A stretch of 64,000 nucleotides of DNA from Terrabacter sp. MAHUQ-38 (GTDB taxonomy: Bacteria > Actinomycetota > Actinomycetes > Actinomycetales > Dermatophilaceae). Location: contig NZ_JACVCU010000002.1 of NCBI RefSeq assembly GCF_014518425.1, forward strand, positions 558,001-622,000. The letters run 5' to 3'. A program made the position numbers and the translations under genes. The notes under the pieces were generated by a model. That model saw only the letters and a program-made list of their open reading frames with translations, did not search any database and was not told the origin of the DNA. Below, piece after piece: positions 21,669-42,110 of the stretch. Numbering within the stretch: the stretch's first letter is position 1; every line of letters begins with the position of its first letter.

Positions 21669-23258
21669 TCAACGACGCGGGATGCCCTGGCGCAGCAGGC
21701 CGTGGACGATGCCGTCGGTCAGGGCCCGCCACGACGCCGCGAGGATCGAGCCCGCCACGCCGATGGTGTCCCACGACGTCTCGCCGTCGGAGGTCTCGAT
21801 GAGCACGCGCGTGATGGCGTCGGTGCCGTGCGAGGCATCGAGGATGCGCACCTTGAAGTCGATGAGCTCGATCTTCTCGATCTCCGGGTAGGCGCGGCTC
21901 AGGGCCTCCCGCAGGGCGTGGTCGAGGGCGTTGACCGGGCCGTTTCCCTCGCCGGTCGCGATGAGGCGTGAGCCGTCGGCGCGCAGCTTGACGGTCGCCT
22001 CGGACGTCGCGGCACCCTCCCCCGACGAGTCGGTGATGACGCGCCACGACTCGACCTCGAAGTAGTGGGTGCAGCCGGGCTCGAGCGCCTCGCGCACCAT
22101 CAGCTCGACCGTGGCGTCGGCCGCGTCGAAGGTCCAACCACGCAGCTCGAGGTCCTTGACCTCTGCGAGCACCTTCGCCACGACGTCGGGCCGGTCGGAG
22201 AGGTCGAGCCCGGCCTCTCGCGCCTTGAGCTCGATGCTCGCGCGCCCCGCCATGTCGGAGACGAGCGTGCGCATGCCGTTGCCCACCAGGGCAGGGTCCA
22301 TGTGCTGGTAGAGGTCGGGGTCGACCTTGAGGGCACTCGCGTGCAGGCCGGCCTTGTGCGCGAAGGCGCTCGCGCCCACGTACGGTTGACGGCTGTAGGC
22401 GGGGACGTTGGTCACCTCGCTGATGGCGTGCGCGATGTGCATGGCGCGCCGGAACGCGTCGGCCTCCATGGCTTCGAGCTCGAGCTTGAACTGGAGGTTC
22501 GCCGCGACGGTGACGAGGTCGGCGTTGCCCGTGCGCTCGCCGTAGCCGTTGACCGTGCCCTGCACGTGCGTCGCGCCGGCGCGGACAGCGGCGACGGAGT
22601 TGGCGGCCGCGCAGCCGGTGTCGTTGTGGCAGTGGGCCCCGATGCGGGCGCCGGTCTCGGCGATGACGTCGGCGACGACCACCTCGACCTGGTGCGGGAG
22701 CATGCCGCCGTTCGTGTCGCACAGCACGACGACCTCGGCGCCCGCCTCGTGTGCGGTGCGCACGACCGACAGTGCGTAGTCGCGGTCGAGGTGCCAGCCG
22801 TCGAAGAAGTGCTCGCAGTCGACGAAGACCCGGCGGCCCTGCGCGACGAGGAACGAGACGGTGTCGCGCACCATGGCGAGGTTCTCCTCGAGCGTGGTCT
22901 TGAGGGCGCGCTCGACGTGGCCCGTGTGTGACTTGGCCACCAGACACACGACGGACGCCCCCGAGTCGACGAGGGCGCGTACGAGGGGATCCTCCGCGGC
23001 GAGCCCGCCGGCCCGTCGGGTGGCCCCGAAGGCGGCGAGCGTCGCGCGGCGGAGGCTCAGCTCGCCCTTGGCGCGCTCGAAGAACTCGGTGTCCTTCGGG
23101 TTCGCGCCCGGCCAGCCCCCTTCGATGAAGTCGACCCCGAGATCGTCGAGCAGTGCGGCAATGGCGAGCTTGTCGGACACCGAGAGGTTGAGCCCCTCCT
23201 GCTGGGCGCCGTCGCGCAGGGTGGTGTCGTAGACGTGCAGCGCTTCCATGGCCCTCAT
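21669..23258 (-). CDS. cimA: (R)-citramalate synthase
   Basis: Condenses pyruvate with acetyl-CoA to citramalate, a threonine-independent entry to isoleucine synthesis. The LeuA-like TIM barrel begins with DTTLRDGAQQEG and has the metal ligands in IGAHCHNDTGCAAANS; a C-terminal LeuA dimer/allosteric domain (E-S-W-R-V-I-T to the end) is where isoleucine feedback would act. The length, 529 aa, fits CimA rather than LeuA. ATG 23258 and ATG 23249 are both possible starts; neither has ideal ribosome-site spacing. A leader peptide and terminator lie 137-230 bp upstream, suggesting attenuation. CimA and LeuA-like homocitrate enzymes are similar, but the pathway context supports CimA. Confidence 0.9.
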   Translation of the reverse strand: MRAMEALHVYDTTLRDGAQQEGLNLSVSDKLAIAALLDDLGVDFIEGGWPGANPKDTEFFERAKGELSLRRATLAAFGATRRAGGLAAEDPLVRALVDSGASVVCLVAKSHTGHVERALKTTLEENLAMVRDTVSFLVAQGRRVFVDCEHFFDGWHLDRDYALSVVRTAHEAGAEVVVLCDTNGGMLPHQVEVVVADVIAETGARIGAHCHNDTGCAAANSVAAVRAGATHVQGTVNGYGERTGNADLVTVAANLQFKLELEAMEADAFRRAMHIAHAISEVTNVPAYSRQPYVGASAFAHKAGLHASALKVDPDLYQHMDPALVGNGMRTLVSDMAGRASIELKAREAGLDLSDRPDVVAKVLAEVKDLELRGWTFDAADATVELMVREALEPGCTHYFEVESWRVITDSSGEGAATSEATVKLRADGSRLIATGEGNGPVNALDHALREALSRAYPEIEKIELIDFKVRILDASHGTDAITRVLIETSDGETSWDTIGVAGSILAASWRALTDGIVHGLLRQGIPRR

Positions 23259-23394: not shown

Positions 23395-23423
23395 CAAAAA
23401 GACCCCCCAGGGTTGGGAGGTCT
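23395..23423 (-). terminator. Intrinsic terminator in the cimA leader
   Basis: Nine-bp stem with one G-U pair and a T5 tract on the minus strand (positions 23396-23400), 137 bp upstream of the cimA start. Because the next gene upstream (a GATase) ends only about 150 bp away, it could also terminate that operon, but the peptide ORF between them favours attenuation. Confidence 0.75.
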
Positions 23424-23447
23424 GCGCAACGAGGGGTGCTCGTCGCG

Positions 23448-23489
23448 CTATTCGATAATGAGCGTGCCGGTGGGCACGAGGCGCTTCAT
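23448..23489 (-). CDS. Candidate leader peptide of cimA (13 aa)
   Basis: ORF of 13 residues, MKRLVPTGTLIIE, ending in TAG. It holds Leu, Val, Leu, Ile, Ile, and the two Ile codons (ATT ATC) lie two codons before the stop, next to the first leader stem. The ATG is 9 bases from a -10 box and has no Shine-Dalgarno, so it is probably translated from a leaderless mRNA. Ribosome stalling at the Ile codons would fit control of citramalate synthase, which feeds isoleucine. There is no direct proof that it is translated. Confidence 0.6.
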   Translation of the reverse strand: MKRLVPTGTLIIE

Positions 23490-23573
23490 CACACGCCAAA
23501 GGTAGGGCTCACGAAACACGGGCGAAACACCCCGTCCGGATCGTGGACCCGCTGTCCACCTGGTGGCCGCGGC

Positions 23574-41956: not shown

Positions 41957-42016
41957 GATCTTTTCCTTGTCTCGAGCACGTCATGTGTCCTGCCGTGTCT
42001 GGCTGACTCCACCCAC

Positions 42017-42052
42017 AAAAAAACCCTTCGGTCCCATGGCGGGACGGAAGGG
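42017..42052 (-). terminator. Intrinsic terminator in the ilvB leader
   Basis: Twelve-base arms with one C-C mismatch, loop GCCAT and seven T on the minus strand, 61 bp upstream of ilvB: the strongest U-tract terminator in the window. Confidence 0.9.
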
Positions 42053-42083
42053 AGCGCGCTGACCGGTCGGGCTGGTCGGCGCG

Positions 42084-42110
42084 CTATGGAAGTACGAGGA
42101 GTCGGGCCAC
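42084..42110 (-). CDS. ilvL: ilvB leader peptide (8 aa)
   Basis: GTG-initiated ORF coding (M)ARLLVLP and stop TAG. Four of eight codons are Leu or Val. It overlaps the first leader stem, so stalling on Leu/Val codons would alter folding before the terminator. The start is within 6-9 bases of the promoter -10, so a leaderless mRNA is likely. Expression is not proven, but the context strongly supports it. Confidence 0.75.
   Translation of the reverse strand: MARLLVLP

Follow-up and report, generated by a model that had tools for sequence, protein, structure and literature searches.

A candidate isoleucine-sensing transcription attenuator upstream of the citramalate synthase gene cimA in Terrabacter and other Actinobacteria

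In the genomic stretch of Terrabacter sp. MAHUQ-38 analysed here (64,000 nucleotides, hereafter the window), the citramalate synthase gene cimA is preceded by a leader that very probably acts as a ribosome-mediated transcription attenuator, which would sense charged tRNA-Ile and control cimA. The product of this gene starts the threonine-independent route to isoleucine. As judged from sequences, the comparison makes a strong case for isoleucine attenuation of cimA by a ribosome-mediated mechanism, and this case comprises the anatomy of the leader, its conservation and covariation, the matching of its codons to the downstream gene and the spacing of its parts. The following features are referred to throughout:

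23499..23504, minus strand: -10-like hexamer TACCTT, 6 nt 5' of the GTG start (sequence and similar placing in relatives)
23448..23492, minus strand: leader ORF with GTG start, 14 codons plus TAG, M-MKRLVPTGTLIIE (sequence, relatives)
23464..23477, minus strand: hairpin H1 within the leader ORF, GTGCC-CACC-GGCAC (covariation in 28 leaders)
23454..23459, minus strand: control codons ATT ATC (Ile Ile) (spacing to stem A in relatives)
23424..23448, minus strand: hairpin A, 10 bp, with the G of the stop codon TAG as its first base (folding, covariation)
23400..23423, minus strand: terminator hairpin T, abutting A (folding, terminator scan, covariation)
23396..23400, minus strand: T-run of five T, the first of which closes hairpin T (sequence)
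21669..23258, minus strand: cimA, citramalate synthase (TIGR00977, 612.6 bits, cut-off 450)
42017..42110, minus strand: parallel leader before ilvB, MARLLVLP-TAG, followed, as at cimA, by hairpin A and then a terminator (sequence, folding)

The leader ORF ends in Thr-Leu-Ile-Ile-Glu-TAG and may start at GTG 23492 or ATG 23489. An ORF of 13 codons had been proposed in the initial annotation, and the ATG at 23489 does open MKRLVPTGTLIIE-TAG; a length of 14 codons is nevertheless more likely, because an in-frame GTG (23492-23490) lies one codon 5' of this ATG and 6 nt after the -10 hexamer, and because a start codon occupies the equivalent place in 27 other leaders (alignment A2, selected for that feature). 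The same annotation had correctly pointed out the -10 box (TACCTT, 23504-23499), the two adjacent Ile codons (ATT ATC at 23459-23454), a stem-loop with five T (T-run at 23400-23396) and a distance of 137 bp to cimA, which we find to be approximately 137 bp between the leader element and the ATG at 23258. The stem, which it had placed after the stop, in fact takes the G of TAG itself as its first base, and the 3' end of hairpin A is the base just before terminator hairpin T (23423-23400). The suggestion that the ORF is leaderless agrees with the sequences, in which start and -10 hexamer are separated by 6 or 7 nt in 69 of 95 distinct copies, a count that is indicative only, as start and hexamer were chosen jointly by a script. 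A promoter scan detected no consensus -35/-10 promoter upstream of cimA, so that the promoter call rests on the -10 hexamer and its place in relatives.

Folding of the 106-nt leader gave -47.8 kcal/mol (z -5.9), with no equally stable sequence among 200 shuffles; A and T alone reached a z of -6.6, and here again 0/200 shuffles were as stable. A terminator scan across 3.7 kb reported four overlapping or single sites compared to 0.5 in shuffles, and three of the four were hairpin T. The locus combines a short ORF bearing a codon run for the end product of the controlled gene (Ile, cimA) with an intrinsic terminator located between this ORF and cimA, as is characteristic of leader attenuators. 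The Terrabacter cimA itself is 93-94% identical to three named Terrabacter loci.

Conservation was assessed in the 450 nt upstream of cimA in the window and 110 further loci (80 named records plus 30 sites from related genomes, among them the site in the window itself, with duplicates between the two sets). The arrangement of A followed by T was located in 108/111 of these regions by a script that allowed one mismatch, a count that leans towards the attenuator reading because this second finder accepted A only if it began with GCG and gave a bonus for Ile codons. The element was absent from loci L033, L056 and L079, the contig of the last beginning 68 nt before cimA. An earlier finder, which had neither the GCG nor the Ile rule, placed A and T in 66/80 named loci, chose a wrong A in 5/80 and returned nothing in 9/80. 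Hairpins A and T adjoin without a gap in 56 of the 95 distinct copies and are 1 nt apart in 38 and 2 nt apart in a single one. The distance from the start of the last Ile codon to A is 8 nt in 85/95 copies and 6-10 nt in all 95, and the leader stop is TAG in 86 and TGA in nine. When the frame with the most Ile codons adjoining A was taken as the leader reading frame, the uninterrupted Ile run comprised two codons in 51 leaders, three in 40, one in three and four in one.

Both stems covary. Across 82/95 copies, 97.2% of the 1392 cells of A and T were paired, while control structures slid along the same alignment paired at only 38-56%. Changes on both sides affected 8/17 pairs (shuffled mean 5.1, reached by 3/500 shuffles) and 109 cells (31 in shuffles, 0/500), the pair counts being lowered because T is misplaced by one column in a few rows of this alignment (A1). 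For H1, all five pairs had changed on both sides in the 28 leaders of the 14-codon type (shuffled mean 3.0, reached by 15/500) and the covariation score was 0.53 versus 0.18 in shuffles (0/500); as with A and T, these figures are not probabilities, because the shuffles leave relatedness in. Locus L048, whose start likely lies elsewhere, was not part of alignment A2. With Ile codons and both stems conserved, and with compensatory changes in the stems, the comparison supports the reading as an isoleucine attenuator put forward in the initial annotation.

The leader peptides have a composition of their own. In 93/95 leaders (two longer than 18 residues were set aside), isoleucine accounts for 22% (231/1030) of residues, compared to 3.4% in 80 cimA genes, and ATT is used for 92/229 Ile codons of the leader runs versus 20/1404 in the cimA genes. 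Threonine is also frequent, with 18% (186/1030) of leader residues versus 6.7% in cimA genes, and it often immediately precedes the Ile run (e.g. L062, L071, L038). Threonine is the precursor of isoleucine on the other route, and the thr leader of Escherichia coli senses threonine and isoleucine. That the cimA leader likewise senses threonine in addition to isoleucine appears improbable to us: the enrichment and the position of Thr directly before the Ile run would fit such a role, but a conserved ACC codon in the H1 loop of the 14-codon leaders could explain the Thr, and Thr is scarce in several distant leaders that do have Ile runs.

In order to describe the spread of the element, a covariance model (R1) was built from 82 cimA leaders, leaving out the 13/95 with A loops > 12 nt, and run on 396 actinobacterial genomes (E <= 0.001). 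It matched 74 sites in 70/396 genomes. A later search with an element model recovered all 13 of the left-out leaders and found nothing in L033 and L056. In the window genome, the cimA leader was the single match at E <= 0.001 under stricter filters. Downstream genes were labelled for 70/74 matches by tblastn with the window CimA and IlvB, by ORF reading and by tblastn with four of those ORFs, which NCBIfam identified as LeuB, LeuA, LeuA and LeuS (for LeuS, an incomplete stretch that scored below the cut-off). The gene following the match was cimA in 26 cases, ilvB in 32, leuB in three, leuA in five and leuS in one, and no gene was assigned in three.

Distant cimA genes were approached separately. 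The gene was detected at E <= 1e-80 in at least 281 genomes, and 80 were hand-picked for variety among the matches listed; up to 2.6 kb upstream was taken and searched with a structure-only finder, counting hits within 600 nt. Such hits were obtained for 20/80 genes. All 15 that scored > 31 have Ile codons directly before A (e.g. RIIIIR-stop, TIIIID-stop), and the five scoring below 31 have no Ile codons there. The genus with an MIIGS leader before cimA is taken by us to be Streptomyces, and SCO5529 is presumably the S. coelicolor cimA. For another 20 of the 80, a leader containing one or more Ile codons, and in most cases Val codons too, precedes leuB at approximately 2 kb upstream of cimA; leaders combining Val and Ile were seen at L214, L218, L228, L246, L251, L254, L277, L281 and others. 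These leuB leaders probably head an operon with cimA as its last gene. In distant families, A and T may be as much as 5 nt apart. Among the 80, L208, L245, L256 and L266 (family f64) and L232 (f56) show an Ile run and a strong hairpin with no U-tract, and the four f64 loci share GCUCCCGUAG beside that hairpin; control at these loci is perhaps Rho-dependent or translational. No leader was seen in the remaining 40/80 distant cimA genes, which speaks against the attenuator reading, as do the lack of the element in L033 and L056 and the wider spacing of A and T in distant families. The element is widespread, not universal.

The amino acids encoded in the run match the downstream gene: leaders of cimA carry Ile, those of leuB Val/Ile, those of ilvB Leu/Val/Ile and those of leuA Leu. 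Counting the last six codons of leaders framed by the stop at A, we obtained 30 Ile, 2 Val and 3 Leu codons of 60 in ten cimA leaders, where the matches lean towards Ile because the model contains Ile columns. Ten further cimA leaders that came from structure-only finding, one of them misframed, gave 32 Ile and 2 Val of 60. Before ilvB (23 leaders), the counts were 16 Ile, 50 Val and 38 Leu of 138; before leuB (21 leaders, two genomes counted twice), 45 Ile, 26 Val and 3 Leu of 126; and before leuA (five leaders), 17 Leu of 30 with no Ile or Val. The ilvB and leuA matches were obtained despite the Ile columns in the model. In the codon tables, the rows of most presumed Streptomyces and of L136, L138, L191 and L216 are misframed or unframed and were read from other outputs. 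Leaders with Leu runs that the cimA model also matched include L189, L195, L200, L201 and L186 (leuA) and L191 (leuS), and the matched leader L192, for which no downstream gene was assigned, ends in GFVAIA-stop.

Within the window, the cimA model matched the ilvB leader at 42014-42100 (25.6 bits, E 3e-4). The Terrabacter genome hence has two forms of the leader, one with Ile codons only (cimA) and one with Leu/Val codons (ilvB), and the RNA scaffold is common to cimA and ilvB leaders, given that the cimA-derived R1 matches 32 ilvB leaders as well as the window's own.

How the leader would work can be outlined as follows, where we infer the transcription start, the direction of the response and the part of A as blocker of T. 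Transcription would start at or beside the leader start codon, and the ribosome would begin on leaderless RNA. With isoleucine plentiful, it would reach the TAG and cover the 5' arm of A, T would form and transcription would stop before cimA. With isoleucine short, it would stall at the Ile codons, its front edge reaching to the base of A. Hairpin A would then form directly against T, T would not be completed in time and cimA would be transcribed.

The spacing of the parts can be compared with this outline. The distance between the first base of the A-site codon and the front edge of the ribosome was taken as 12 nt. On this footprint, a ribosome at the first Ile codon overlaps the 5' arm of A (10 nt) by 0-1 nt in 89/95 leaders, and one at the stop covers 8-10 nt in 94/95, so that hairpin A is placed for opposite effects of a waiting and a finishing ribosome. 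A ribosome at the last Ile codon covers 4 of the 10 nt in 85/95, which counts against the scheme. In five of the 95 leaders the stop lies 13-19 nt inside A, and there the A loop measures 18-34 nt versus a median of 5 in the other 90, of which four also have loops of >= 19 nt. The spacing is the geometry of an antiterminator that is freed by a waiting ribosome and masked by a finishing one.

Against the scheme, the folds of 60 homologues contain both A and T (mean -36.6 kcal/mol), and masking the 5' arm of A makes no difference to the formation of T. A classical antiterminator was sought in these 60 by forbidding T or masking the A arm, and nothing competing appeared in a folding model that leaves pseudoknots outside; an extension of A through UAG into T fails by eye in the window sequence and most others viewed. 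No antiterminator sharing bases with the terminator was thus found, and the classical three-region form is not claimed. Since A and T do not compete, we infer how a stalled ribosome would prevent termination, and we favour steric hindrance of T by the adjoining A. The two hairpins are 0-2 nt apart in every one of the 95 copies from this clade, which leaves A immediately next to the terminator. A broader proposal, namely a phylum-wide type of attenuator with two hairpins that share no base, in which A sterically blocks T at or in the RNA exit channel and codon runs are exchanged from gene to gene, is offered tentatively and is somewhat less likely than its opposite.

A different role for A has to be weighed against this steric effect. 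Hairpin A could be a pause or synchronising hairpin, with the antiterminator formed by pseudoknot-like pairing between the C-rich A loop and the G-rich 3' arm of T, as drawn for the Corynebacterium ilvB-II motif in the relevant part of Narunsky et al. (PMC10272879). The A loops are indeed C-rich and G-poor (216 C and 24 G of 386), and in 84/95 sequences they pair with the T 3' arm over a mean of 3.54 bases compared to 3.26 in shuffles (0/300), a statistic that leaves relatedness in. The effect is small, however, and without G-U pairs it falls to 2.77 versus 2.63, reached by 6/300 shuffles; furthermore, T is longer and nearer and should outcompete the loop pairing. We regard this arrangement as unlikely, while leaving it appreciable weight.

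Two readings dispense with the sensing of isoleucine by the leader ORF. As a gene on the same strand lies 82 bp before the leader GTG, T might be an ordinary terminator that closes an upstream transcript, with the short ORF arising by chance. The element is conserved with cimA, however, and not with the upstream gene, the PuuD-like gene being present in 10/80 named loci, and the fixed spacing of Ile codons, stop and stem argues against a chance ORF. In 67 other loci, a crude longest-ORF test gave an oppositely oriented upstream ORF in 36, one on the same strand in 29 and none in two. Hence T is not the end of a conserved operon, the outcome that the initial annotation had named as evidence against attenuation; the upstream-operon terminator was rejected on synteny, and we consider this explanation most improbable. 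The RNA could instead bind a protein or small ligand directly, with the ORF being secondary, which would suit the well-conserved stems and which is how the LEU element of leuA in Actinobacteria is read in the corresponding part of a 2005 survey (PMC1262725). Against direct binding, one and the same scaffold carries different codons depending on the gene that follows, stop position and A loop size change together in 5/95 leaders, and no Rfam family was matched: a scan of the window with Rfam 15 at gathering score yielded two tRNAs only, and the best family at the cimA leader was Phe_leader with 20 bits (gathering 55, E 0.46). Direct binding is therefore also very unlikely, and ribosome-mediated attenuation remains the preferred reading.

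With respect to novelty, full-text searches yielded no description of a cimA or citramalate-synthase leader, in line with the initial annotation, which treated such attenuation as apparently undescribed; Lopatovskaya 2010 (Mol Biol 44:128) may contain an earlier prediction. The sections concerned in PMC1262725, PMC8079986 and PMC10272879 document branched-chain leaders before ilvB, leuA and leuS in Actinobacteria. As no earlier description was found, cimA appears to be a new target of such attenuation. If this is true, a large phylum has an isoleucine sensor dedicated to the citramalate route, and the list of attenuated genes grows by cimA and by transcripts starting with leuB. Since nature has already swapped the codon runs on a common scaffold, the leaders provide ready-made controls for amino-acid specificity, and the compact actinobacterial attenuators pose a clear mechanistic question because A and T do not overlap.

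Among known systems, the 2005 survey of Actinobacteria lists, in the part dealing with leaders, trp, cys, ilvB, leuA, leuS, trpS and ileS leaders, LEU elements and T-boxes (PMC1262725). Its ilvB leaders resemble the present element in being short ORFs with branched-chain codons that overlap terminators, whereas a cimA leader is not reported in that part; for the S. coelicolor ilvB leader, the same part states that codon changes had no effect on regulation (PMC1262725). Leaderless leaders before ilvB, leuA, leuS and others are likewise described for Streptomyces lividans TK24, whose IlvL MRTRILVLGKRVG (PMC8079986) is similar to those cimA leaders, MRSLVIIGGRVGTA for example, that extend into A. 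The list of eight leaders given there is without cimA, (PMC8079986), while the presumed Streptomyces genus has the cimA element. For ilvB attenuators with similar parts in Corynebacterium and mycobacteria, the pertinent passages of PMC10272879, PMC11857589 and PMC13236596 present experimental support. The ilvBNC attenuator of C. glutamicum and the ilvB-II motif share with the Terrabacter leader a leaderless peptide with branched-chain codons and a hairpin followed by an intrinsic terminator (PMC11857589, PMC10272879), and differ from it in that the Terrabacter target is cimA and its control codons are Ile only. The antiterminator and terminator of C. glutamicum have a GCC in common (PMC11857589), whereas A and T of Terrabacter share no base. 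In Mycobacterium tuberculosis, the gene is ilvB1 and the control codons encode LVVI; the word 'citramalate' is absent from the main text of that source, and cimA is not mentioned in its passages on ilvB1 (PMC13236596). For the ilvB1 leader, as we propose for cimA, those passages put forward that a ribosome at the stop masks the antiterminator hairpin and one at the control codons frees it (PMC13236596).
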